A DNA stretch of 64,000 bases, taken from contig NZ_CP041692.1 of NCBI RefSeq assembly GCF_007362775.1, positions 868,001 through 932,000 on the forward strand, in the 5' to 3' direction. This document shows positions 1 through 11,969 of this stretch, piece after piece. The first letter of the stretch is position 1; each line of letters opens with the position of its first letter. Made by a program: the position numbers and the translations under genes. Source of the DNA: Microlunatus elymi. Lineage in GTDB: Bacteria > Actinomycetota > Actinomycetes > Propionibacteriales > Propionibacteriaceae. The notes beneath the pieces were generated by a model. The model was not told the origin of the DNA, searched no databases, and was given only the letters and a program-made list of their open reading frames with translations.

Positions 1-891
1 CTCGGCCAACGTGGCCAGCACCCGCACCGCCTCATCGGCCGTCCGGGCGAACGCGGAGAACAGGTGGCGGCCGGTGGCCAGCTCGACGCCGGCCTTCAAG
101 TCCACGCCCCACAACCGAACCAGGTCGGCATGCACAGCCGGAGCCAGGCCACAGCAGATGCCCCACAGCACCGAACCCTTGCCCGATCCCGAAGCGCCGA
201 CACACAGGGTGTGGCGTCCAGTGATCGGCAATAGCCAATCCCTGCCCGCCTGCGTCCGGCCCAGGCGAACCGTGTCCACCACCAGGCCGTCGGGTTCGGT
301 TCCGATCGTCGGCGTGATCAACACGTCCCGCATGATCAACTCGATCGCCACCGTCGATCCCGACACCGGCCAACACCGGACCGCGACAGCATCGAAGATC
401 GAGCCGATCCGTTCCGCGCCGGCCTCCAACTCCGTCACCGTCTGACCCGACCGGGCCCGGATGATCAACTCCATCGCATGACTGGTCGTCCGAACCCTGG
501 CCAGTCGGGGACAGCGCCACGATTCGGTGATCATCCGCTCACCGGTCAGCGATCGACGCTCCACCCTCCGCCGCTCGGCCAGGTGCGCGTCGCGACAGAC
601 CGCCTCCCACCGCGAGGTGATCACACGCCGCCACCGAAGCCGCCGCCACGGTCCAGCCGCCAACCGCTCGAACGATCGAGGAGATGCCGCAACCCACGTC
701 GCGCCGACCAGGCCAGGCGACACACCAACCGCGACCACCACGGCGACCAAGATCAACTCCTGGCTCAGCCACCAGACCGTGACCGCTGTCAGCAACAGCA
801 AGGCGAGCCAGCACTTGGCCCGAAGCAGCCAACGGCCCAGCCACCGCAACCCCCGAGCCGCGGTGGCTGAACCGACAGTGCTGCCAGTCAT
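1..891 (-). CDS. FtsK/SpoIIIE-type DNA translocase of an integrative element (TraSA-like), 3' part outside window
   Basis: Reading leftward from an ATG at 891 there is an open frame of 297 codons running off position 1 without a stop. The first 60 residues are hydrophobic and basic, as expected for the membrane anchor of FtsK-like conjugation proteins. Around residue 235 the Walker A motif GASGSGKGS is followed by a segment typical of the FtsK/SpoIIIE domain (LWGVDLKAGVEL). In actinomycete integrative elements of the pSAM2 kind a single such hexameric pump moves double-stranded DNA between hyphae or cells. The start overlaps the upstream stop by four bases (ATGA), so it is translated with the Cys-rich protein and Pra. 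The family is clear; the TraSA role is inferred from the neighbours. Confidence 0.88.
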   Translation of the reverse strand, partial: MTGSTVGSATAARGLRWLGRWLLRAKCWLALLLLTAVTVWWLSQELILVAVVVAVGVSPGLVGATWVAASPRSFERLAAGPWRRLRWRRVITSRWEAVCRDAHLAERRRVERRSLTGERMITESWRCPRLARVRTTSHAMELIIRARSGQTVTELEAGAERIGSIFDAVAVRCWPVSGSTVAIELIMRDVLITPTIGTEPDGLVVDTVRLGRTQAGRDWLLPITGRHTLCVGASGSGKGSVLWGICCGLAPAVHADLVRLWGVDLKAGVELATGRHLFSAFARTADEAVRVLATLAE

Positions 892-1211
892 GACGCCGCC
901 AACTCCACCGGGCCGGCGTTCACATGGATGTTCGCTGTCGCCAGCAGCAGATCCGGCACCACCTCAACCACACGCCGCGGGGCCAAGATCGGTGCACCCC
1001 AGAACTGGCCGCCGCAGCTGCACGACCAGGAATCGGCGCTGAAATCGACCCGATGCCCACCGCCTTCCAGCCGCCGGACAGGGCCGACCTGCGAGCACCA
1101 GCGGCACAACACCACGCCGCCAGCGAAGAAGTCGAACCAATGCGCCGAAGCACTCCGCCCGCCGTACCCGCAAAGATCACACCAATACAGCGTCAACTGT
1201 GCGGTGCTCAT
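888..1211 (-). CDS. Small Cys-rich protein of the conjugative operon
   Basis: This 107-residue protein sits between pra and the FtsK-like gene. It has Cys pairs CDLCG, CRWC and CSCGG, which could bind a zinc ion, and no signal peptide or membrane segment. The start is GTG (1214) or ATG (1211): the GTG overlaps the pra stop by four bases, while the ATG overlaps it by one. Its own stop overlaps the FtsK-like start by four bases. Small genes at this position between pra and tra are common in actinomycete integrative elements, but I do not recognise a named family. Function unknown; coupling to transfer is inferred from the operon. Confidence 0.72.
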   Translation of the reverse strand: MSTAQLTLYWCDLCGYGGRSASAHWFDFFAGGVVLCRWCSQVGPVRRLEGGGHRVDFSADSWSCSCGGQFWGAPILAPRRVVEVVPDLLLATANIHVNAGPVELAAS

Positions 1212-1675
1212 CACGCCGCCCGAGAACCAGAGCCGCCGCTGGCCGACCCACCAGGCTTCTTCGCCTCACCCGGCGCCATGATGTCCTCGGCCTTGAACGA
1301 CCACGCCACCCGCGCACGATCGCGACCCTCACGATCCTTCCCACCGCCGTAATCCACCCACGCCAACGCCGTCAACCCGACGAACTCCACCGGCCGCCAA
1401 GGAGTCCCGGTCGGATTCTCCGGCGGCGTCGGCTGCACCCTCGCTGCCAACTTCACCGTCACCGCCGTATCCCGCTTGCCCGCCTCATCGTCGGCGTCCA
1501 GGACCGTGACCTGCCACAACGGCAGGCCAGTGTCCTTGTCGAGTTGTTGCGGACGTGACCCGTCCTGTCGCTGCGGTGCGGTGAAATCAGCCACCGCCTC
1601 AACCGAGCCCTTCATGTACGCGCCCATCGGGAACACATCACCGTGAGCGACCTTGAACCGCTTCTGCAACGCCAT
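1211..1675 (-). CDS. pra: Pra-like activator of replication, integration and excision
   Basis: This is a 154-residue protein starting MALQKRFKVAHGDVFPMG. It contains the family pattern of 'plasmid replication, integration and excision activator' proteins: DKDTGLPLWQVTVLDAD in the middle, then VKLAARVQPTPPENPTG and RPVEFVGL, and a Gly/Ser/Lys-rich tail. In pSAM2, Pra switches the element from the integrated to the replicating state and is repressed by KorSA. I chose the ATG at 1675 because the homology begins there and the promoter and two palindromic operators lie immediately upstream; a longer frame to 1873 would read through those operators. It heads the pra, Cys-rich protein, FtsK operon. 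Confidence 0.85.
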   Translation of the reverse strand: MALQKRFKVAHGDVFPMGAYMKGSVEAVADFTAPQRQDGSRPQQLDKDTGLPLWQVTVLDADDEAGKRDTAVTVKLAARVQPTPPENPTGTPWRPVEFVGLTALAWVDYGGGKDREGRDRARVAWSFKAEDIMAPGEAKKPGGSASGGSGSRAA

Positions 1676-1699
1676 CGTCTTGCCCTTCCACTCGCTGAA

Positions 1700-1717
1700 T
1701 ACAGCACTAACGCTGTA
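1700..1717. promoter_or_regulatory. Second palindromic operator downstream of the pra -10
   Basis: TACAGCACTAACGCTGTA has the same outer arms (TACAGC/GCTGTA) as the copy at 1725-1742. It is centred 25 bp away, near two to two-and-a-half helical turns, and lies between the -10 and the pra start. Confidence 0.7.
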
Positions 1718-1718
1718 C

Positions 1719-1747
1719 ACGCTATACAGCACTCGTGCTGTAGTCAA
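1719..1747 (-). promoter_or_regulatory. pra promoter (-35 TTGACT, -10 TAGCGT)
   Basis: On the minus strand TTGACT (1747-1742) and TAGCGT (1724-1719) are separated by exactly 17 bases. The -10 is 43 bases before the pra ATG. The spacer is almost entirely the second palindromic operator, which is the arrangement of a repressor-controlled promoter. Read by eye from sequence; no transcript evidence. Confidence 0.6.
1725..1742. promoter_or_regulatory. Palindromic operator between -35 and -10 of pra
   Basis: TACAGCACTCGTGCTGTA is a perfect 18-bp palindrome (8-bp arms, 2-bp centre) filling the promoter spacer. A KorSA-type repressor is the expected ligand in this element family. No GntR gene is in the window, so the XRE protein at 2299-3525 is the local candidate. 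Confidence 0.75.
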
Positions 1748-1829
1748 TGGCTTCGTCGATTCAACTGTGATGTGTCGCGGCCAAGCAGAGAGGGGCCAAA
1801 TTAGGGGCCAGTTGGAGGTGACCGCCGGT

Positions 1830-2327
1830 ATGGTTCCCGCCATGTCTCGCCTTTGGTTCGACACGGAGTTCATTGACGACGGCCGGCGGATCGAGCTGCT
1901 GTCGATCGGGGTGGTTCGCGATGACGGCGCGACGTACTACGCCGAGCCGATCGAAGCGGACCGCGAGGCGGTCAATCCCTGGGTGCGCGAGAACGTGTTG
2001 CCAAAGCTGTGCGGACCGCAGAAGGCCCGACACGAGATCGCGGCTGACCTGGTTGCATTTGCCGGTGCGAATCCGGAATGGTGGGCCTACTACGCCGACT
2101 ACGACTGGGTAGCTCTGTGCCAGCTATTCGGCCCCATGGTGGATCTGCCGAGCGGGTGGCCGATGTTTTGCCGCGACCTGGAGCAGCTCGCAGTTGATCT
2201 TGGGATTGACATTGAATCGAGCGTGCCGCCCAGTGGTCAACATCACGCCTTGGCGGACGCTGAATGGACCCGCGCCGCGTGGGACTTCTGCCAGTCGGTC
2301 AAGCTGGGGAGCGAATCAGTTCTCTGA
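1830..2327 (+). CDS. Rv2179c-like 3'-5' exoribonuclease (DEDDh fold)
   Basis: This RNase T-like exonuclease has WFDTEFIDDG near the N-terminus (Exo I, metal-binding Asp and Glu), YYADYDWVALCQLFGPM in the middle (Exo II region) and HHALADAEWTRAAW near the C-terminus (Exo III with His and Asp). These match the mycobacterial Rv2179c family, shown to be a 3'-5' exoribonuclease. The ATG at 1830 follows GGAGG with an 11-base gap; ATG 1842 (MSRLWFDTEF) matches the Rv2179c start better, so the first four residues are uncertain. It is the only plus-strand gene among the element genes. Its 3' end overlaps the convergent XRE gene by 29 bases. Role in the element unknown; RNA turnover on transfer or phage-like use are possible. 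Confidence 0.82.
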   Translation: MVPAMSRLWFDTEFIDDGRRIELLSIGVVRDDGATYYAEPIEADREAVNPWVRENVLPKLCGPQKARHEIAADLVAFAGANPEWWAYYADYDWVALCQLFGPMVDLPSGWPMFCRDLEQLAVDLGIDIESSVPPSGQHHALADAEWTRAAWDFCQSVKLGSESVL

Positions 2328-3525
2328 CTGCATCGGCACGCTCCGGCGCATGCGAAGACATGATCTTGGAAGCCTCCCGTAGCTTCTCGACCGCATGGCG
2401 ATTCAGAGCTACGGCATCGTCTGCAATCTCATTGGCCACCTTCACACATCCGTCGACTTCGCCGCTTGCTGCGAGGGCGAGCGAGAGGCAGCTACCGATC
2501 CAGGCCTGGTCTCGCGGATAGGTCGACTTGATCCGCTCGTATCCAGTGGAGAGCAGATCAACGGCGACGGGGAAGTTGCCGAGTTGCAGCTCGATCGTTC
2601 CTTGTTGCCTAAGAAGCCAATCCTCGTCGTAGAAGTACAGCCAATCGGGGGCGGCCTTCGCAGAATCAGACGCAAGTTGCAGGAGCTCGCCAGCACGCTC
2701 AAGCTCGGCTCTCGCCGTTTCTGCGTCGCCAGCCAGTGCGAACCCTCGCGCCGAAGTCTGACGAAGCATTCCGCTCAGCCCAGGGGAGAGCCCGTCGTAC
2801 TCATCGGCGGCCGCGATCGAGCGCTGGCACAGTCGTGCGTCGCCCTGCCCCCAAGCGTGGTGCGCCTGCATACTCAGCGCGGTTGCAGCCAATTCCGAAT
2901 GATCCGCTTGCTCGGCCCACTCTCGTGATCGCCCGTACCAAGCCGATGCCTCGGCGTGATCGGCCGTGGTGACCGCCATCCACCCCAGGAACTGCGCGTA
3001 CTGCGCCGCCAAGTCGACGGCGCCGATCCGCAGGTCACCCTGAGACTTGTTCGCGATGTCGATCACGGCGTTCAACTGCGCACGAGCCACCGGAGCAATT
3101 GGCTCTGCGCCAAGATCATCTTCTGCCGTCCGATGCCGAGCCAGGCAGTCCGTGATCCAGTCGAGCGTGGCGGCATCCGGACGACGCAATCCCGAGACCA
3201 CACCATCGACTCGTTGCGCCTCGTCTGGATCAGGGGCGATATTTGGCAGGTTCAGAGTTGGAATCGGAGCGTTCCCGCGTAGCGCCTTCGCAGCAGTGCG
3301 CGACTCCTGAACACGGTCGAAAGGGATGCCGCCAACATCGGCAATCCACCTTGCCCAATGGTGTTGAGGAACACGAACCCCGCGCTCCCACCGCGAGACC
3401 TCGGTCCTCGTGAGCGTGACTTCGCCCGACGCCTGGTTCAGCTCGTCGGCAAGATCACCTTGGGACCACCCGTTAGCACGACGGATGCTCGCGATCAGAT
3501 CGCCGATCACCATATCGTCCGCCAT
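2299..3525 (-). CDS. XRE-family regulator with TPR-like C-terminal domain
   Basis: This 408-residue protein starts at ATG 3525 (MADDMVIGDLIASIRRANGWSQGDLADELN). The first 75 residues form a Cro/C1-type helix-turn-helix (LTRTEVSRWERGVRVP is the recognition region). The remaining 300 residues are Ala- and Leu-rich helical repeats similar to TPR regions of peptide- or partner-sensing actinobacterial regulators. It begins eight bases after the stop of the excisionase-like gene, so they form one unit. It is a candidate for the protein that binds the three TACAGC...GCTGTA palindromes. Ligand and targets cannot be read from sequence. Confidence 0.82.
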   Translation of the reverse strand: MADDMVIGDLIASIRRANGWSQGDLADELNQASGEVTLTRTEVSRWERGVRVPQHHWARWIADVGGIPFDRVQESRTAAKALRGNAPIPTLNLPNIAPDPDEAQRVDGVVSGLRRPDAATLDWITDCLARHRTAEDDLGAEPIAPVARAQLNAVIDIANKSQGDLRIGAVDLAAQYAQFLGWMAVTTADHAEASAWYGRSREWAEQADHSELAATALSMQAHHAWGQGDARLCQRSIAAADEYDGLSPGLSGMLRQTSARGFALAGDAETARAELERAGELLQLASDSAKAAPDWLYFYDEDWLLRQQGTIELQLGNFPVAVDLLSTGYERIKSTYPRDQAWIGSCLSLALAASGEVDGCVKVANEIADDAVALNRHAVEKLREASKIMSSHAPERADAVRELIRSPA

Positions 3526-3533
3526 GGCCAGGT

Positions 3534-3758
3534 TCACCCACGCTCGCGCTTCTGAGCCTGGCGCTTCCTGGGACGGCTCGCGTGCCACTCCTGGATGGTC
3601 TCCGGGCGCCACAGCCGCATGTTGCCCATGGTTCGGTCGGGTGTAGGCATTTGGCTGCGAGCCAGGTACGCCCGGATGGTGGAAGCGGACACGCCCAGCG
3701 CGTTAGCCACATCCTCTGTCGTCCACCAGTCAGTCGGCGGATCGCCTCCCGGCACCAT
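3534..3758 (-). CDS. Excisionase-like small helix-turn-helix protein
   Basis: This 74-residue protein is mostly a winged-helix/MerR-like DNA-binding domain: WWTTEDVANALGVSASTIRAYLARSQMP, then MRLWRPETIQEWHASRP and a very basic tail. That is the pattern of AlpA/Xis recombination directionality factors and helix-turn-helix excisionases of actinobacterial elements. The ATG at 3758 is chosen because an 18-bp operator lies eleven bases upstream. In most such elements xis sits beside int; here it is paired with an XRE regulator and the integrase is outside the window, so a purely regulatory role is also possible. Confidence 0.7.
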   Translation of the reverse strand: MVPGGDPPTDWWTTEDVANALGVSASTIRAYLARSQMPTPDRTMGNMRLWRPETIQEWHASRPRKRQAQKRERG

Positions 3759-3768
3759 GTGTCCACCG

Positions 3769-3786
3769 TACAAGGCCCGTGCTGTA
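3769..3786. promoter_or_regulatory. Third copy of the TACA...TGTA operator, in front of the excisionase-like gene
   Basis: TACAAGGCCCGTGCTGTA matches the perfect palindrome at 1725-1742 at 14 of 18 positions, keeping the right arm intact. It ends eleven bases before the ATG at 3758. A possible -35 (TTGGAG) abuts it on the minus strand, so a bound protein would block initiation. Confidence 0.55.
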
Positions 3787-3888
3787 CTCCAATGCGGCTG
3801 TTGTCTGACGCACTGCGCGTCCACACTGCGACGTTCGCTCGGCGGAAAGTTCTCTCCGGCACTACTTGGCCAGTTACCCACGACGTGA

Positions 3889-5826
3889 CTACTCCTCTAG
3901 CCACCCCGATGGGATGAGAGCAACGCCGTTGCGCCAGTTGTCTATCACCGCGTCCTGGAACCATCCATCGGCCAGGTTGGCGTGGTCGCACACGATGACC
4001 TGCAGCGAGCCATCGAGAGCAGCCACGACGTCCCGCATGAGAGTGAATTGTCGTCGCACAGCTTCCCAGTCAGCGTTTTCATCATCCGCGGCGTCGACAA
4101 TCTCCTCAGGAAAGAATGCTTGCGTCGGCTGGTCGAACATCAGGAAGCGCGGGACTGGTCGGTCATTAGTTGCGAACCAATGATGAAGAGCGAGGTGCGC
4201 GGCCAGATGGTAGCCCACCCAGTTCTCTGCACTACCCATACGAGCTAGCGGAATTCGGCCGCCAGGGCGCTGGATTGCCACGGTCAGCTGGACCGGGTCA
4301 AGGCGGACGTAATGCTCAGACCCTTCGAGTTGGAGGAACCGCGCATAGTCAGTCATCAGATCCGAAATTGCGTCCACCGCCGACCGAAGCAAGGCGTCGG
4401 GGTTATCGCGATCCGCCAACTCCTCGAGCCGGGCCAACCGTCCTCGCTGCTGACGTTCGGCAGCTCTCAACTCGGCGAGGTCCCCGGCCACGTCTACGCC
4501 ACGTTCCAACTCCTGACTGACTCGGCCTTGGAGAAAAGCGATTCGCTCGGCCCGTTCCCGGCCATCCGCTATGGCGCCTTCTTGCTGTGCTAAGGCGTCA
4601 AGTTCAATCAGATTCTCTTGAATTGCCTCTATGAGTGGGGCCCGTCTGCCGCGCAAGCGTTCGATGCTCGCATCACGTCGTGCGGCGGCTCCAGTCGAGG
4701 ACTGAAGGCGCAGCTCCAGGCGCTCCAACACTGCACGGAGTTCATCAATCGTTTCGTCTCGATGAGACAGGCTTTGGTCACAAAGCGGGCACACGCTGAC
4801 ATCGCCATCGGTTAGGTCCCCAGCTGGCACTAGCAAGTCCAAAGCTCGTAGCCGCTGTACCTGATAGCCGGCTTCGCCCAGTTCGTCCGATTGTTCCTTC
4901 CCTAGCCGCTCCAGTAACTCAATCTGGTCGTCGATCTCGCGAACGCGACTCCTGAGGGAATTGCGTTCCTCCGTCAGTAGGCGCCGCCGCAACGATGTTT
5001 CGTCCCCACCGCCCAAGTCTGAGGCCGTCGAGTAGGCCATTATCTCCTCAAGGAGCGACAGTACTCCTTCACGCGCTAATACGGCGTCGCCCGGAAGCAC
5101 GTCGAGGGATGTAGCAGACTCGATAATGTGGGTGATACGCGCGTCTTGCTGCTCCAAGTCCTGTTCCATGGATCTCATCGCGTTTAACGTCCGTTGGAGA
5201 GCCCGTCGGGCGGTCACCAGTTGGCGTCGAATTGCAGCCTGCTCGGGAGTCGCGGCGCCCAGAAAATACGGGAGCGTCTCACGAATGGTTCCGCGGATCT
5301 CATCCTTTACCTGCCGATGGAACAGTATGTCGCGACTTGCAATTTCCCCTTGCGTTTGGAAGCAAAAGAACAGCGCCTGGCGGACCGAGACATCGAAAGA
5401 CGATCGTAGGGAACTTGCATCCGCCTCAACCGTGAATGCTTCTATGCCGAGGCGTCCCGAAAGTGTGTCTCGAACGACGTCTGTGTCGGCATTAACCTCC
5501 AATTCCGCGAAATCTGGGGCTGTGAGATCTAAGCCCCCGGTTCGAACCATTGCCCGGTTGGTGGTCGCCGTTTCAGGGTTCGGCCTGCAGATGAGCACTC
5601 TTTCGTCAGAAAACTGCACCAGTACGTAGTACCAAGATGCGATATCACTGATTGTCCCTTGCGAGATCGTAACTGTATCGCGGCCGAGACAATATTCAGC
5701 GATGTCCAAGATCGCCGTTTTCCCTGTCTTTGATTTGCCCGTCAAAATGTTTAGTGCGTTGGTCTGGAACTTCACATCGCGCCTTTGGCCCTTCTTCCCG
5801 TAGACGCCGAGCGCAACTAACTGCAT
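3889..5826 (-). CDS. ABC-3C system ATPase (DUF3732, Rad50/SMC-like)
   Basis: This 645-residue ATPase has Walker A GKSKTGKT at residues 30-37, a long central helical segment, a CPLC pair near residue 345 resembling the zinc-hook of Rad50, and a late Walker B-like FLMFDQPTQ near residue 562. The DQP variant is typical of DUF3732 proteins. Families of this type are the ATPase component of ABC-three-component (ABC-3C) systems defined by comparative genomics and predicted to act in anti-phage conflict. I start at ATG 5826 (MQLVALGVYG), two bases after the stop of the middle component; a TTG at 5853 would extend it by nine residues. Base composition is clearly lower in GC than the surrounding genome, which suggests transfer. 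Confidence 0.85.
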   Translation of the reverse strand: MQLVALGVYGKKGQRRDVKFQTNALNILTGKSKTGKTAILDIAEYCLGRDTVTISQGTISDIASWYYVLVQFSDERVLICRPNPETATTNRAMVRTGGLDLTAPDFAELEVNADTDVVRDTLSGRLGIEAFTVEADASSLRSSFDVSVRQALFFCFQTQGEIASRDILFHRQVKDEIRGTIRETLPYFLGAATPEQAAIRRQLVTARRALQRTLNAMRSMEQDLEQQDARITHIIESATSLDVLPGDAVLAREGVLSLLEEIMAYSTASDLGGGDETSLRRRLLTEERNSLRSRVREIDDQIELLERLGKEQSDELGEAGYQVQRLRALDLLVPAGDLTDGDVSVCPLCDQSLSHRDETIDELRAVLERLELRLQSSTGAAARRDASIERLRGRRAPLIEAIQENLIELDALAQQEGAIADGRERAERIAFLQGRVSQELERGVDVAGDLAELRAAERQQRGRLARLEELADRDNPDALLRSAVDAISDLMTDYARFLQLEGSEHYVRLDPVQLTVAIQRPGGRIPLARMGSAENWVGYHLAAHLALHHWFATNDRPVPRFLMFDQPTQAFFPEEIVDAADDENADWEAVRRQFTLMRDVVAALDGSLQVIVCDHANLADGWFQDAVIDNWRNGVALIPSGWLEE

Positions 5827-5827
5827 G

Positions 5828-6331
5828 TCAATTTCCGATCCCAAGCAACTCAAATGCCATGTGTGTGTCGACTGCGTTGAACCATTGGCCGCAGATCGCA
5901 GCCGCCCGAACGGACTTCTGAAGTTCTTCCGGCCAATTCTTCGCTGGCTGTTTCGGTCGCTTCAATGCCACGAGAGAAGTTCCATCCATGCCCAGCCGGC
6001 GTGCTCGCAGTCCGTGGCGAATTGCCCGCTTCGTCGGCTGCACCATTGTTGCGACCCGGTACTCCATGTCGGCAAGCAGGTCGGGCTGCCTTACTGCCCA
6101 TCGCGAGAGCGTGATCCGGCGATCTCGCGGTAGACTTTCGCGCGTTGGCGGGTGCAGGGTCAATGGGAGAATCAAATACGCAGCGGGCCAGTCCAACCCG
6201 CTCGAACCTATTCGAGCCTTATTCCAGCACGCATTCACCAACAGTTCCGACGTGAAGACAACGTTGAACAGTGCGATTGCCTCGGGTGACCTTGCCGTCC
6301 GAGAAGAGTCATCGCTTCGCATCTCAGACAT
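5828..6331 (-). CDS. ABC-3C system middle component
   Basis: This 167-residue protein has no catalytic motif I can identify. Its size, position between the nuclease and the ATPase, and segments such as EAIALFNVVFTSELLVNACW and SLVALKRPKQPAKNW fit the 'middle component' (MC) of ABC-three-component systems, a small helical adaptor seen only in such operons. Its ATG overlaps the end of the nuclease gene by eight bases, and its stop is one base from the ATPase start, so the three proteins are translationally coupled and probably form one complex. Confidence 0.78.
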   Translation of the reverse strand: MSEMRSDDSSRTARSPEAIALFNVVFTSELLVNACWNKARIGSSGLDWPAAYLILPLTLHPPTRESLPRDRRITLSRWAVRQPDLLADMEYRVATMVQPTKRAIRHGLRARRLGMDGTSLVALKRPKQPAKNWPEELQKSVRAAAICGQWFNAVDTHMAFELLGIGN

Positions 6332-7514
6332 GAATCAGTAAGGCCTCCAACTTCTTCTCAAATTCAGGGTGCCACCCGATTCTTTGGCCCAATTCTCCGT
6401 CCGCAAGTGCATGAAGCATCCCGCGATTGAACCACTGTTCGTCGAACCGCTCACGTACCCGTGCGCGACAGGTCTTGGTAAGTTCCGCCAAGATTTCCTG
6501 CCCGACAAGCTCTGCGTCAGTGCGTCCAGAATGCGACATGGAGGCCATGCTCGCATCGAAGATCTGCTCCCACTCGTCGTGCAACTTGAACGCGTAGCGA
6601 TCCAACTCCGCTTCCGCAAGTAATTGATGCCTGAGCCAAAAGGACCGTTGAGAATAGGCGCGATGGTAATCGCGGATCGCTTTCCATAACCGGTTGTTTT
6701 CGAACGCTATCCAGAGCAGTTGTTGAACAAAGGGTCGGTCTTTATAGGTGTCGACTATGGACTCATCGTAGTCCTGCATTACCTGTGGATCCACAGGTAA
6801 AGTGTCGTGCTTCAGCTGATCTGCAATGTCGTTGACTTGTAAGACGAGGTCGTTTCCCGTGATCGCCTCGAGATTGCCCGCAAGCAACTGGACAGATATT
6901 CCCGCCCACCAGCCCTTGATGAGGTGCGTGAAGACAGGTTCCTTGCCAACCGGGATGGCGAATCGAAAGGTTCTGGTCAAGTCCTTGTCGAAATCAGAGG
7001 CTTGAGTGGAGTTATCGTCAATCACGATTTTTCCGATCAACTCCTCCTGGCCGTCGATGCCCATCTTGATGAATTTTTGTCGCCATGGTGCGCTGGTGCT
7101 GCTCCGCGACTCCTCTGCGGCCTTAACCAGAGCGCTCAATGCGCCGGCTGTATCCCGATCGGCCCCGGACCGCAGGCCACGAAGGGGGGAGTTGCTGGGG
7201 ATCTTCTGGGTCGTAACCAGGCGCAGCAGTAAGTCTTCGCAGGACTGTAGGTCCATCCAGACATTTAGTGTCCGCCACAGATCCGTGCTGGACGGAGTGA
7301 GGGAGCCCGAGGACGATCCAATGTGATGCTTTGTCTGGAGAAGCTCTTCTGGAGTGCCGCTCGCGTCAAACTGAATATCGTCCAGGCACTCCAATCGAAG
7401 CTGGGTCGCAGGATCTGGGGCGCGGCGCCCCAGCTCGACGAGGGCCCACATGCATTGGTGGAGATAGCCAAGCGCCTGCCCAGCAGCGCTGTGCTGCGGC
7501 GCGCCAGATGCCAC
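6324..7514 (-). CDS. ABC-3C system effector: DUF4297/Cap4-like nuclease with ABC-3C C-terminal domain
   Basis: This 396-residue first gene of the operon begins at GTG 7514 behind an AAAGGAA ribosome site. The N-terminal 80 residues look like the DUF4297 (Cap4-type) restriction-endonuclease fold: GYLHQ, then E42, D45-D46 and the Q60-T-K62 motif (a Q-x-K variant of PD-(D/E)xK), followed by LWRTLNVWMDL. The C-terminal 150 residues (YAFKLHDEWEQIFD ... ILAELTK ... RGMLHALADG..IGWHPEFEK) match the C-terminal domain that marks ABC-3C effectors. Predicted action: DNA cleavage licensed by the partner ATPase when foreign nucleic acid or a nucleoprotein signal is sensed. The nuclease assignment is from motifs only. 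Confidence 0.8.
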   Translation of the reverse strand: MASGAPQHSAAGQALGYLHQCMWALVELGRRAPDPATQLRLECLDDIQFDASGTPEELLQTKHHIGSSSGSLTPSSTDLWRTLNVWMDLQSCEDLLLRLVTTQKIPSNSPLRGLRSGADRDTAGALSALVKAAEESRSSTSAPWRQKFIKMGIDGQEELIGKIVIDDNSTQASDFDKDLTRTFRFAIPVGKEPVFTHLIKGWWAGISVQLLAGNLEAITGNDLVLQVNDIADQLKHDTLPVDPQVMQDYDESIVDTYKDRPFVQQLLWIAFENNRLWKAIRDYHRAYSQRSFWLRHQLLAEAELDRYAFKLHDEWEQIFDASMASMSHSGRTDAELVGQEILAELTKTCRARVRERFDEQWFNRGMLHALADGELGQRIGWHPEFEKKLEALLIHV

Positions 7515-7620
7515 GAATCCAATTCCTTTCGCGTGGGGCCAAGTGTCGCGAGCCTAATGCCAGATACGGCGCCGTGCGGGCGATCTCCCCGTTTTGTCGG
7601 GCCTAGCTGTCTGGCCTACT

Positions 7621-7666
7621 GGTCTGTGGCAGACCTTGCAGACCTCGCAGACCTCGCAGACCTTGT
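7621..7666. repeat. Short tandem array of a 9-bp GCAGACCTY unit at the IS target
   Basis: Four near-identical 9-bp units (GCAGACCTT or GCAGACCTC) follow one another just before the insertion sequence, and the sequence resumes with the same unit on the other side. The stretch 7515-7620 upstream holds only the putative promoter region of the ABC-3C operon. Confidence 0.7.
7652..7666. repeat. 15-bp target-site duplication, left copy
   Basis: CCTCGCAGACCTTGT occurs here and again at 9755-9769, directly abutting both inverted repeats of the insertion sequence. IS481-family elements make duplications up to this size. The target is itself repetitive, so a shorter duplication extended by chance is possible. 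Confidence 0.7.
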
Positions 7667-9754
7667 TGTGATCCGACAGGTGATGTGCGACAGAGTTCCG
7701 CCAGCTGATGTGCGACAGCTGGCCTAGGAAACTGAGGGTTCAGCGGTCCGTGGCCGCTGTCCCTTGATGCTACGCACCGGGTCGATGGTGGTCCTGCGGA
7801 CCACGAGTTCATCGGCTCCGGGCAACTCGATAGCCAGACTGGTCTCGGACACATGCACGGTGACGGTGCGGTGTTGGTGTTCTCGGCCGAGCGCGACGTG
7901 CTGGCCGGCGACGGTGACGACGCCGGTGTTGGAGGCCCGCCGCTGGACGGTGATCGGCTCGGTCGAGGGCCGGGGAACCGGGCCGACCGGGCGGGCGTGT
8001 CTGAGATCGAACGCCTCACCCGGTTCCAGCGGGTTGGGTCGCACCCGCAGCAGTTCTCGCGTGTCGGGGTCGAAGAACAGCAGCGGGGCACCTTCCTCGA
8101 TGAAGATGCCGACCCGACGCCCGGCCAGAATCTCCGCTGCCAGGACCACCCGGTTGCCCAGCGACACGGTGCCGGCTCGGCCCACGGTCCGCTCGACCTC
8201 GGTCACGGTCCGACTGGCCCGGCTGCCCGGACCGGGCTTGGCCGGCAACGGCGGCGCACCGGCCGGCACCGCACCTTGGCCGGTCAGCACATCGAGGTCG
8301 GTGACGGTGAACCGAGATCGCAAGGACTTGACCCGGGTTCCGCCGATCGACAGGTGCACCCATTGGCAGTCGATCCAAAACCGCACCACCTGACCTGCCC
8401 GGCCCGGTCCGAGCCAGAACTGGTTGTTGCACAACGCCATGTTCCCCGACGCCGGCACCACCCGATCCAACTCGATCGCCGCACCACTGCCCGGCACCCG
8501 AACCGCTGGTTGCCCGCTCACCGGTTCATGATCATCACCCAGGTCATGAACACGCGGCGGTTCGTGATCATTTGCTGACTTGCCGGCGTTGGCGGGATCG
8601 CTGGTGGTGTTGAGGATCCCTAACCCGGTCGGCACCCACAACCCAATCCCTGGCACGGCCGCAGCGGGGGTGAACCGGTCGGCCGGCACTACCGGCACCT
8701 TGTCGTCTAGTGCCTGGTGCGGCCGGTCGGCGTTATAGCCGGCCACCCAGGCATCCACCGCGGCCTGGGCGGCCTCAACCGATGCGAACGGGCCAGCCTG
8801 ATCGAGGAAGTCGGGCCGGAACGTGCCGTGAAATCTCTCCACTTTGCCGTTCTGATTCGGCGAGGCCGGCCGGGTCAGCCGGTGCGTGATGCCGTTCTTG
8901 CGGCAGATCTTGTCGAACAACACCTCACCCCGGCTGGGCCCATACCGGTTGAACCGGTCGGTGAACTGCTTGCCGTTATCGGTGATCACTTCCTCCGGCA
9001 CCCCATACCGGGCCAGCGCCTGCGCAAAGGCCAGACACACCGCCCGGCCGGTCGCCCGTTCCACCACCGCCGCCATCACACAAAACCGGGAATGATCATC
9101 AACCCCGGTCACGATCTTCGCGCCCCGAATCTCCCCGGTCCGCACATCGACCAGCTCGATCCCGCCGACAATATCGATGCCCCACAACTGCATCGGCCCC
9201 TCACGCTGGAACCGGATAAACGACTCCCGCGGCCGTTTCCGCGGCCGCTGCCGCAACAACCCCTGACGGATCAGGATCCGATCGATCGTCCGCTCCGACG
9301 GCACCGGCAACGGCACCGAACCATCCCGAGCCCAAGGCAGCGGTCCACGCAACAACTCCAACCGGATCCGCCGCGAACCCCACCGCGGATGCAACCGCCG
9401 CATCTCCGCCACCGCCACCTCGACCGGCTCACCAGCCTGATGCGGACACGACACCGGCCGATGCGACCGATCCGCCAGACCGCCGATCTGCTCAGCCAAA
9501 TAGCGGGCCACCCACCGATGCACCGTCGCTCGATGCACCCCGGTCCGGGCCGCAACCTCGACCACATCCATCCCACTCAGCACTGCCCGGACCGCGTCCA
9601 GACGCTGCTCCACCACAGACAAGACAACCAGTACCAATCCCGGCCTCCCTGACTCCGAGACGCCCCACGGAGACGCCCAAAATCAGAGTGCCGACAAGAC
9701 CGGTGTCGCAGATCAACTGACGGACGTGTGTCGCACATCAACCGACGGAGCACA
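7667..9754 (-). mobile_element. Complete IS481-like insertion sequence, 2,088 bp
   Basis: The ends are TGTGATCCGACAGGTGATGT... at 7667 and its inverted match ending at 9754. The outer 26 bp of the two ends agree at 22 positions and both begin TGTG, as IS481 ends do. Each end carries the word TGATGTGCGACA twice, 13 bp apart (7681-7692 and 7706-7717; inverted at 9729-9740 and 9704-9715, the last with one mismatch). A 15-bp direct repeat flanks the element. It is inserted upstream of the ABC-3C operon, inside the larger integrative element. Confidence 0.85.
7724..9637 (-). CDS. IS481-family DDE transposase with long C-terminal extension
   Basis: This 637-residue transposase starts at TTG 9637, six bases after AGGGAGG. 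Residues 5-60 are a helix-turn-helix (VAARTGVHRATVHRWVARY). A second HTH-like segment and the rve integrase core follow with the DDE triad in GIDIVGG, VITDNGKQF and NGKVERFH. Usual IS481 transposases are 300-400 residues. Here about 280 further residues contain two related beta-rich blocks (SGNMALCNNQFWLGPGRAG... and TGVVTVAGQHVALG...), like the beta-barrel DNA-binding modules found after the core in Mu-type and IstA-type transposases. The frame is intact, so the element may be active. Confidence 0.88.
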   Translation of the reverse strand: MVLVVLSVVEQRLDAVRAVLSGMDVVEVAARTGVHRATVHRWVARYLAEQIGGLADRSHRPVSCPHQAGEPVEVAVAEMRRLHPRWGSRRIRLELLRGPLPWARDGSVPLPVPSERTIDRILIRQGLLRQRPRKRPRESFIRFQREGPMQLWGIDIVGGIELVDVRTGEIRGAKIVTGVDDHSRFCVMAAVVERATGRAVCLAFAQALARYGVPEEVITDNGKQFTDRFNRYGPSRGEVLFDKICRKNGITHRLTRPASPNQNGKVERFHGTFRPDFLDQAGPFASVEAAQAAVDAWVAGYNADRPHQALDDKVPVVPADRFTPAAAVPGIGLWVPTGLGILNTTSDPANAGKSANDHEPPRVHDLGDDHEPVSGQPAVRVPGSGAAIELDRVVPASGNMALCNNQFWLGPGRAGQVVRFWIDCQWVHLSIGGTRVKSLRSRFTVTDLDVLTGQGAVPAGAPPLPAKPGPGSRASRTVTEVERTVGRAGTVSLGNRVVLAAEILAGRRVGIFIEEGAPLLFFDPDTRELLRVRPNPLEPGEAFDLRHARPVGPVPRPSTEPITVQRRASNTGVVTVAGQHVALGREHQHRTVTVHVSETSLAIELPGADELVVRRTTIDPVRSIKGQRPRTAEPSVS

Positions 9755-9769
9755 CCTCGCAGACCTTGT
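9755..9769. repeat. 15-bp target-site duplication, right copy
   Basis: Second copy of CCTCGCAGACCTTGT, starting one base after the IS end. Confidence 0.7.
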
Positions 9770-10238
9770 GGTCCGTGAGGACTTTCTTTACTGGTTCAAG
9801 GCGCGCCTTCGGCGCGCAGCCCGGGCACCCCGGGGCCCCGCCTCGCTGCGCTCGGCACCCCGGGGACCCCACCCGGGCAAACCAAAGGGAGCGCCCGATC
9901 CCGCAAGATCAAGACGCTCCACTCATCGACCAAGGCCCGACGATGCCCTGGTCTGCCGATCAACTCACCTCCGAGCCGCCGACCCGATGTTTGATTGTCA
10001 CTCGCCGCCGGCCGGCGTCAAGAGCACTCCGCTGCGCTCCGTGGCCCAAGGGCTGCCTTCGGCACACTTGACTCCGACCAACGCCGAGTAATTGGCTGGC
10101 TATCGGGTCGGTGGCTCTCCCTGGCCAGCGCGGGTGACGAACTGGGTGACAACCCACGCTCACCACCACCACAAACCAGCAAACCAATCCGACGGTCCAC
10201 CACCGCGACGATAGGCACCGGACGGCGCCCCAGCCGGC
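9770..10238. other. Gene-free right arm of the island with GC-rich hairpins
   Basis: I see no convincing gene here. The stretch contains a 7-bp perfect hairpin with a TTC loop (GCGCGCC/GGCGCGC at about 9802-9818), a run of CCCCGGGG half-palindromes to about 9890, and an interrupted inverted repeat GTCAAG...CTTGAC around 10018-10072. These may be terminators protecting the chromosome from element transcription, or remnants of a decayed gene. Confidence 0.5.
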
Positions 10239-10282
10239 TCGTAATGAATAGGTCGTCGGTTCGATTCCGACAGGTGGCTCCA
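10239..10282 (+). tRNA. Truncated 3' part of a tRNA-Thr(CGT) gene: attR of the integrative element
   Basis: The fragment begins at the anticodon loop (CTCGTAA, anticodon CGT). It then has a variable region, a perfect T-arm (GTCGG, loop TTCGATT, CCGAC at 10255-10271), the 3' acceptor strand AGGTGGC, the discriminator base and an encoded CCA. The 5' half (acceptor, D-arm and the 5' anticodon stem) is missing: the bases before it do not pair. Integrases of pSAM2-like elements recombine within tRNA 3' ends, leaving a full tRNA on one side and such a fragment on the other. This marks the right boundary of the island. Confidence 0.82.
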
Positions 10283-10617
10283 TCCCGAAATCCGCTCTGA
10301 CCAGTACTTTGTAGCGGCCCACCCACAGCAGCTTCAGCAACGACCGATCGGCGAAGGAGCGAACGCCAGCGCTGCGCCTACGGCGTACTTAAGCTTTTCG
10401 GTCAGACCGTTCCCAGCCCTGCCGCTGAATCCGGCAGGACCTGACCACCCGCCGGCCCCACGGCGAGTGTGTCTCGACCGGATCCACTACCCGGGCTCCT
10501 GGGGCCAGTGGCGGTGCTGTTCGTCGCCTGTTTCGGGTGAGTCGATGGTGGTCGGGATCGGGCTACGATCGGCGGCAGCGTGGGTGGGCACGGCCGACCG
10601 GGTGGGGTGATCGGGCG
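10283..10617. other. Intergenic stretch between attR and the sulfatase remnant
   Basis: Nothing coding is convincing here. Sequence composition returns to that of the host chromosome. A GGGTGGGG stretch just before 10,618 could serve the GTG start of the sulfatase. Confidence 0.4.
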
Positions 10618-11969
10618 GTGGATCGACCGAACGTGTTGTTCTTCCATGTGGACAATCTCGGATTCGGTGAGCTGAGCTGCTACTCGGGCGGACCATTTCG
10701 AGGGGCGTCGACGTCGCGTATCGATGCGTTCGCCGGCGACGGCTTCCGCTTGACCAACTACTGCCCTGAATCGCAGTGCACCCCGAGCCGGTCGGCCCTG
10801 CTGACGGGTCGCCACTCGATCCGATCCGGAACCCACAGTGTCCCGATCGGCGCCGGCTCCAACTGGGGCCTGGTCGCGTGGGAAAGGACACTTGGCGACC
10901 TGTTGGGGGAGGCGGGCTACGCGTGCGCCGCGTACGGGAAGTGGCACGTCGGGGAGGGGCCGGGACGGTGGCCCACTGATCATGGGTTTCGGGAGTGGTA
11001 CGGGCCGCCGCGCACTACGACGAGGCGTTGTGGCCTACTGACCCCTGGTACGTCCCGGGCCGAGACCCGGTGTCGCGCATGCTGGAGATCCGTGCCGGAT
11101 CCGACGTTCCCGCCGAGAAAGATCAGCTGACCTTGGACATCCGGCGCGACTGCGATTTGGACTACCTCCGGCGCGTCGAGGACTTCATCCGTGCCAGTCA
11201 CGCTCAACAAACGCCGTTCTTCGTGTACTTCAACCACTCACTGATGCACATGCCGGTGATCCCGCGTGAAGAGTTCGGTGGCCGGACCGGTCAGGGAGAG
11301 TGGGCCGACAGCTTGCTGGAACTCGACAGCGATTTTGGCCGGCTTCTCGACCTCATCGACGATCTTGACCTCGCCGGCAACACCTTGGTGGTCTTCGCCG
11401 GCGACAACGGACCCGAAGACATCTTGCTGTGGCGCGGTTCTCCCGGCTACTGGGAAGGCTCCTACTTCGCCGGGGGCGAGGGCAATCTCCGCACTCCCTG
11501 CATAGTGCGATGGCCACGGCATATCCCCGCGGGCACAAGCAGTGACGAGATCATGCACGTCACCGACTGGTTCACCACAATCCTGCACATGGCCGGTCTG
11601 ACGGCACCCACCGACCGCATCATCGACGGCATCGACCAGACAGACTGGCTGACCGGAAACAGCCAGCAATCGGCGCGTGAGGGGTATCTGTACTGGATGG
11701 GCCCCGAGTTGTACGGCGCCAAGTGGCACAACTTCAAGCTCGTTCTCGTCGCTCAGCGGTACCTGGAGGACACGGCCGCCAAGCTCCCCACCCCACGCAT
11801 CATCAACCTGACCACCGACCCCCAGGAACGCGAACCCGTCGCACTTCCGTACCTGCACACCTGGACCGCCAAACACTTCAACGCCATGATCGAAGACTTC
11901 CAGGCCAGCCTGAAGCGCGAACCGCCAATTCCAGTTGGCGCCGCACTGGACTGGGTCCCCACGTCATAA
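10618..11969 (+). pseudogene. Type I sulfatase, interrupted by one frameshift
   Basis: The first frame starts at GTG 10618 (VDRPNVLFFHVDNLGFGELSCY) and holds the sulfatase signature CTPSRSALLTGR, whose Cys would become formylglycine. It reads to DHGFREWYGPPRT. The second frame continues with YDEALWPTDPWYVPGRDP and carries YFNHSLMHMPV, VFAGDNGPED (metal site) and the C-terminal domain to 11969. Adding one base near 11,014-11,016 (CGCAC-TAC) joins them into a protein of about 450 residues of the arylsulfatase family. It has no signal peptide. It may be a real pseudogene or a one-base sequencing deletion; three more such deletions occur within the next 9 kb. Confidence 0.82.

Follow-up and report, generated by a model that had tools for sequence, protein, structure and literature searches.

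A predicted type II Lamassu defence operon as cargo of a pSAM2-type integrative and conjugative element in Microlunatus elymi

Introduction

Which system is encoded by the three tightly packed, GC-poor genes on the minus strand of the Microlunatus elymi chromosome described here, and what kind of element carries them? The analyzed stretch of DNA, called the window below, comprises 64,000 nucleotides (G000:C1:868001-932000), and the genes occupy its positions 7514-3889. An earlier note, made from the sequence alone, had predicted at this place an ABC-three-component (ABC-3C) defence operon with a DUF4297-like nuclease, carried by a conjugative element. We assign the genes, with a probability of roughly 0.93, to a type II Lamassu operon lmuA-lmuC-lmuB (ABC-3C, also DdmABC) that is cargo of a pSAM2-type actinomycete integrative and conjugative element (AICE).

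The Lamassu systems of Vibrio cholerae and Escherichia coli have been tested, and that of V. cholerae, assayed against phages and plasmids, is reported to act on both (PMC12409362); complexes have been solved as well. Therefore the remark in the earlier note that the class is known mainly from comparative genomics, with activity and trigger untested, is outdated for the class. AICEs, for their part, are reported to carry predicted phage-protection genes (PMC9513070). We found no literature joining Lamassu with AICEs; the search left most subscription papers outside, and absence from print is not claimed. A plasmid-attacking system on a carrier that is expected to replicate like a plasmid, by the rolling-circle mode, raises the question of how the carrier is spared. 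What is new here is modest: this instance, an element of like plan with a distant Lamassu in Mycolicibacterium senegalense, and the tolerance of a rolling-circle carrier as a question. Otherwise, the element is one more well-delimited carrier for a known, ordinary defence system.

Results

The operon and its products

The trio consists of the following genes, in the order of their transcription.

7514-6324, minus strand: lmuA, 396 aa with a GTG start; effector with an N-terminal Cap4-type nuclease and a C-terminal CTD7 domain
6331-5828, minus strand: lmuC, 167 aa; middle component MC3
5826-3889, minus strand: lmuB, 645 aa from ATG (654 aa if the upstream TTG at 5853 is the start); Rad50/SMC-like ATPase with DUF3732

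All three reading frames are intact. The tight coupling of nuclease, middle component and ATPase genes described earlier is present: lmuA and lmuC overlap by 8 bp, and lmuC is separated from lmuB by 1 bp when the latter begins at ATG 5826. The GC content is indeed lower, 0.576 in the trio versus 0.657 in the element backbone; across the 64 kb, 5 of 604 segments of trio length are as GC-poor or poorer, and the minimum among the 531 segments outside the trio is 0.633. The Pfam matches of the three proteins (CTD7, MC3 and DUF3732) all exceed the gathering cut-offs, and the resemblance is no matter of chance; NCBIfam has no above-cut-off model for any of the three products.

LmuB matches DUF3732 (PF12532, E = 6.6e-46) and the PADLOC LmuB model (7.2e-112), and it aligns over nearly its full length with the DUF3732 proteins of the Protein Data Bank (PDB) entries 9hqu, 9uxl and 9ny5, at E-values from 8e-53 (9hqu) to 2.5e-45. 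Its motifs, numbered from the ATG, are the Walker A lysine K36, the hook cysteines C346 and C349, the Walker B pair D565-Q566, and H615. LmuB has been described as a relative of Rad50, with a zinc hook in many of its members (PMC10586767). The same paper already describes the natural Walker B Asp-Gln of LmuB in general and reads it as little or no ATP turnover, and we do not count this pair as a new discovery.

LmuA contains the CTD7 domain of ABC-3C systems (PF20283, 6.7e-32) and matches the PADLOC LmuA model (6.6e-53); its sequence matches in the PDB are LmuA of 9nxx (2.9e-10) and of 9hqu (9.4e-9). The AlphaFold2 (AF2) model of LmuA, built from 42 window and locus sequences (pLDDT 93.1, pTM 0.88), has Lamassu LmuA structures as its top PDB matches in Foldseek, the best being 9nxx (4.6e-14); one of the matched entries bears the title 'LmuACB in nuclease sequestration state'. 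The whole-chain TM-scores of 0.3-0.6 and large root-mean-square deviations reflect differences between the chains, either in conformation or in the placement of their domains. Below Lamassu in the list stand Cap4 (7yia, 1.2e-4) and Hachiman (2.1e-4); lower still, a HerA-DUF assembly follows at 0.012, and the structures with DUF4297 in their titles at 0.2-0.8. The Pfam DUF4297 profile has no match to LmuA at E <= 1. Since Cap4 ranks above DUF4297 in the fold comparison, 'Cap4-type' is the better label for the nuclease, and DUF4297 is dropped as its family name. Thus the nuclease effector of the earlier note stands, by its Cap4-type fold and retained motif, and the DUF4297 label does not; likewise, among the profiles proposed there for a check, those of DUF3732 and the ABC-3C middle component are matched and that of DUF4297 is not.

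LmuC matches the ABC-3C middle component 3 (PF20131, 1.7e-24). Its AF2 model, built from 36 sequences (pLDDT 92.1), matches the Salmonella LmuC 9hqu_D in Foldseek at 9.9e-7 with a TM-score of 0.76, and the scores against LmuC of 9hqu, 9uxh and 9ny5 lie between 0.76 and 0.78. The profiles of all three proteins, the PADLOC models of LmuA and LmuB, the solved relatives and the predicted folds together support the ABC-3C class named in the earlier note.

Comparison with known systems

Among the closest known systems is the V. cholerae type II Lamassu, or DdmABC (PDB 9uxl; 9ny5, 9nyg and 9uxh have the same LmuA sequence). It shares with the window the A-C-B plan, a DUF3732 LmuB with Walker B Asp-Gln, a Cap4-type LmuA and an MC-type LmuC, whereas its LmuB is distant from that of the window (2.3e-45), and the alignments with 9uxl and 9ny5 offer no equivalent for the hook cysteines of the latter. 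LmuACB of Salmonella enterica (9hqu, 9hqx and 9hr5) provides the best LmuB sequence match (the above 8e-53), with the CPMC hook aligned, and both its LmuA and LmuC folds match; however, the identity in these fold matches is about 20% for LmuA and 22% for LmuC, and the host and carrier are different. The original two-gene Lamassu of type I is assigned to the same superfamily (PMC12409362, PMC10586767) but has no middle component, while the window has one. Finally, the DUF4297 and CBASS Cap4 effectors have a related nuclease fold, whereas in the window LmuA no SAVED domain is detected by Pfam, and its partners are LmuC and LmuB.

Conservation and distribution of the trio

Scanning a collection of genome contigs with LmuB confirmed 379 relatives, and the best 80 matches gave 78 distinct loci that were kept. 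The locus counts, motif rows and tree all draw on these best-scoring loci, and the conservation figures therefore describe this branch of LmuB and not all Lamassu. In all 78 loci the three proteins are present, encoded on a single strand in the order A-C-B, so that the trio does occur together in other genomes, as the earlier note would have it. LmuA is short or split in five of them (L022, L034, L036, L038 and L044); in L034, from Streptomyces sp. AC1-42W, approximately 3 kb of intervening DNA splits lmuA (L034:3163-7487). In Streptomyces sp. F001, two trios stand face to face inside 10 kb (L043:6333-15827).

The Walker A lysine, the hook CxxC, the Walker B Asp-Gln and the later histidine are invariant in all 79 LmuB rows. 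Similarly, E42, D45, D46, Q60 and K62 of LmuA show no exception across all 74 rows with a length of 350 aa or more, five shorter rows of the 79 having been dropped from the alignment. In the LmuB tree the window belongs to a starred clade of six, together with rows from Mycolicibacterium, Microbacterium, Georgenia, Zhihengliuella and Actinomyces; hosts from several families would fit horizontal spread. The closest LmuB, with 71% identity, is that of Actinomyces oris. Its Lamassu was considered as AICE cargo and rejected: the AICE-like stretch of A. oris forms an element of its own, 6 kb long and located in tRNA-Arg, and the Lamassu lies 17 kb outside it.

In the plasmid collection, LmuB relatives occur on 87 records. 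For instance, SLP2 of S. lividans encodes an LmuB relative with 40.9% identity, and the middle gene is absent from its incomplete gene table. The search of phages with LmuB gave a single weak match.

The carrier element

The operon lies in an element of 15.1 kb (C1:863167-878293) bounded by an exact 56-bp direct repeat, one copy at C1:863167-863222 and the other at window positions 10238-10293; the repeat includes the 3' end of a tRNA-Thr(CGT) gene located at C1:863136-863211. The features of the element, apart from the trio, are listed below from left to right.

L014:520-1812, left of the window: tyrosine integrase (Pfam Phage_integrase, 1.5e-16)
L014:1895-3436, left of the window: RepSA initiator (Pfam PF20199, 2.1e-154)
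Between the RepSA and FtsK/TraB genes: WhiB-like gene (Pfam, 1.2e-5)
L014:4646-6091, its N-terminal part at window positions 1-891, minus strand: FtsK/TraB-type transfer gene, 481 aa (Pfam PF01580 FtsK_SpoIIIE, 4.8e-12)
Between the FtsK/TraB and NsdA-family genes: SCO3933-like gene (NCBIfam, 0.0066, below cut-off)
2299-3612, minus strand: TPR regulator of the NsdA family (NCBIfam NF053720, 4.9e-45)
3534-3881, minus strand: small MerR/excisionase-like helix-turn-helix (HTH) gene immediately after lmuB, with its first internal ATG near 3758
7667-9754, minus strand: IS481-like insertion sequence (IS) of 2088 bp, between lmuA and attR (Pfam rve, LZ_Tnp_IS481)
10238-10293: attR, the second copy of the 56-bp repeat, with the 3' end of tRNA-Thr(CGT)
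1-10293: the right-hand two thirds of the element, the remainder lying left of the window

The gene order is thus integrase, RepSA, WhiB-like, FtsK/TraB, SCO3933-like, NsdA, MerR/excisionase-like, Lamassu and IS. The integrase, RepSA, FtsK/TraB gene and tRNA att repeat are likenesses to pSAM2-type AICEs, and we classify the carrier as one of these, predicted to be conjugative from its gene content, in agreement with the conjugative-type element of the earlier note. It differs from them in carrying a Lamassu cargo and in that the excisionase-like gene adjoins the cargo rather than the integrase. Within the element, the operon makes up a low-GC cargo close to attR; its place between the regulator genes and attR is as proposed before, with the addition that the IS, too, lies between lmuA and attR.

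The product of the HTH gene at 3534-3881 matches Pfam MerR (1.8e-7) and, below the cut-off, TIGR01764 excise (0.0053), so it may be either an element regulator or an excisionase. This gene also matches the HTH model mad1 of PADLOC (4.5e-9); none of the six other scanned element genes matched PADLOC at 0.001. In the same genus, elements with a close RepSA were considered as cargo-free controls and set aside, since too few element proteins matched for a comparison of the slot: the G019 stretch shares RepSA, TraB and one HTH gene with the window element, and the G018 stretch shares RepSA only.

The IS has a second copy in the same genome (L118, G000:C1:1741188), in which the 2088-bp span is identical, as is the 637-aa transposase (100%). 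The target duplications are 15 bp at the window site and 14 bp at the second site. The identical second copy and the flanking 15-bp duplication indicate that the IS arrived late. A conserved promoter or operator upstream of lmuA was considered as well and dropped, as none is evident by eye in the aligned 200-bp stretches upstream of lmuA in the window and four relatives.

A second element with Lamassu

Another AICE-like element with Lamassu was found in M. senegalense, as a 14.9 kb stretch with a 50-bp repeat at tRNA-Phe (L069:1853-16814). Its replication protein is of the REP_ORF2-G2P type (5.6e-11). Besides the Lamassu trio there are two regulators, an XRE protein that contains an IrrE-like domain and a GntR protein, as well as an FtsK/TraB-type gene (Pfam, 6.9e-6) and an integrase; all these genes share one strand. 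Judged by these genes, it shares its plan with the window element, Lamassu being upstream of regulator and transfer genes. Its LmuB is 36% identical to the window LmuB and stands in another clade of the tree, a place that is unsure because of its long branch. Among the 78 loci it is the sole case of a tRNA-overlapping repeat bracketing the trio; as full flanks are available for just 42 of the 78, and eight of the 78 hold any tRNA, more bracketed trios could be missed.

Discussion

By analogy with the systems described in PMC10586767, PMC12409362 (with an addendum on LmuA release and the tetramer) and PMC12904381, and with PDB titles, we infer how the operon, once expressed, would form a complex, be triggered, cut DNA and benefit its element. 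LmuB would dimerize in the manner of Rad50, with ATP bound at the head and with a zinc hook, and LmuC would dock LmuA onto this dimer and keep its Cap4-type nuclease inactive. Upon meeting DNA ends or hairpins from replicating phages or plasmids, the LmuB clamp would release LmuA, which could then form a tetramer and cut DNA nonspecifically; the cell would be killed or stalled (abortive infection), or the plasmid lost. The Walker B Asp-Gln suggests little or no ATP turnover, and the complex could therefore be a one-shot switch. The element would gain by guarding its host from phages and competing plasmids, since in a protected host the element itself is protected. Lamassu reportedly responds to palindromes (PMC12409362). 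Some points are disputed for V. cholerae, among them the modest size of the effect on one ICP3 phage and the protection against VIB04 that mutants retained (PMC12409362), and both the trigger and the self-tolerance of Lamassu are described as not settled (PMC12409362, PMC12904381).

Several observations weigh against a functional Lamassu on a defined AICE. The PADLOC LmuC model matches the window LmuC weakly (0.016), and the sequence match to the solved LmuC of 9hqu is just 0.02, so that it is the predicted fold and Pfam MC3 that carry the identity of LmuC. The pair of genes flanking the element is not kept together in genomes of the same genus (20 per search, the own genome included), and no empty site could be identified among them. 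Further, 152 bp separate lmuA from the IS copy on its upstream side, an insertion that may have severed a promoter, and a simple scan of positions 3400-7730, limited to the sigma-70 consensus, found no sigma-70-like promoter, with 1.5 expected by chance. A true Lamassu operon silenced by the recent IS, which would have cut its promoter away and left a cargo heading for decay, would be in line with the position of the IS copy and with the outcome of the scan, and the cargo genes of AICEs are reported to decay often (PMC9513070). We nevertheless regard silencing as unlikely: the trio frames are intact, each catalytic residue checked is kept, 152 bp are still left upstream of lmuA, and the scan covered one type of consensus. 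A DNA repair or housekeeping complex of the SMC/Rad50 kind, which the reported kinship of LmuB with Rad50 and the CxxC pair of the window LmuB might suggest, is highly improbable. Such a complex would hardly be as rare and patchy as DUF3732, found in 3 of 96 relatives and, across the phylum, in 6 of 396 genomes (both counts include the genome of the window itself, and one of the six matches just the end of the profile), nor would it be expected to travel on mobile elements with a Cap4-type effector nuclease.

For the type II Lamassu operon preferred here, the next question is its target. The operon could mainly exclude rival plasmids and AICEs rather than phages, a tentative reading that we hold to be somewhat less probable than its opposite. 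It draws on the action of the V. cholerae Lamassu on plasmids (PMC12409362), on the 87 plasmid records with LmuB relatives, and on the eight RepSA matches of the host chromosome, the element's own included, which occupy seven places if an adjacent pair is taken as one and thus make rivals common. On the other side, Lamassu also acts on phages (PMC12409362), and the other RepSA loci are present in the host despite the operon. A bolder extension, for which the two elements of different hosts give the ground (the window and L069 share their plan, with LmuB 36% identical), is that rolling-circle AICEs use Lamassu recurrently as a weapon, slotted upstream of their regulator and transfer genes and wired to the regulators, with a timing or self-tolerance device sparing the element's own replication. 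If true, competing plasmids and phages would be killed while excision and rolling-circle replication of the element are spared; we consider this unlikely.

The hairpin and palindrome search of the element found no self-tolerance device. The element has two hairpins (stem of at least 9, loop of at most 8), both in lmuA, compared with a mean of 0.7 and a maximum of 2 in 40 simulated sequences; the longer is a perfect 22-bp palindrome at positions 6779-6800, of note solely for the response to palindromes mentioned above. No perfect palindrome of at least 20 bp is present in the trios of 76 relatives (L034 and L043 left out). Being not conserved, the lmuA palindrome is rejected as a built-in trigger.

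Additional observations

On the linear plasmid SLP2 (L119, S. lividans 1326), a gene for an ABC-three component protein and a DUF3732 gene are located 4-8 kb from one end, and by record coordinates the LmuB relative is close to a replicon end in several other listed Streptomyces plasmids. In Streptomyces, an enrichment of Lamassu towards the ends of both chromosomes and linear plasmids was already reported (PMC10482375), and this location is not counted as a new discovery.

Two of the eight RepSA matches on the host chromosome are adjacent pieces (C1:653923-655193). Inside the element, at 1653-2327 on the opposite strand, there is a gene for an RNase AS-like (Rv2179c-like) exonuclease; diDNases, a DEDD family, are reported to be associated with AICEs and defence systems (PMC11706625). 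Finally, next to attR, a sulfatase-like gene (10537-11969) is apparently split into the overlapping frames 10537-11130 and 10995-11969, the second of which is matched by Pfam Sulfatase.

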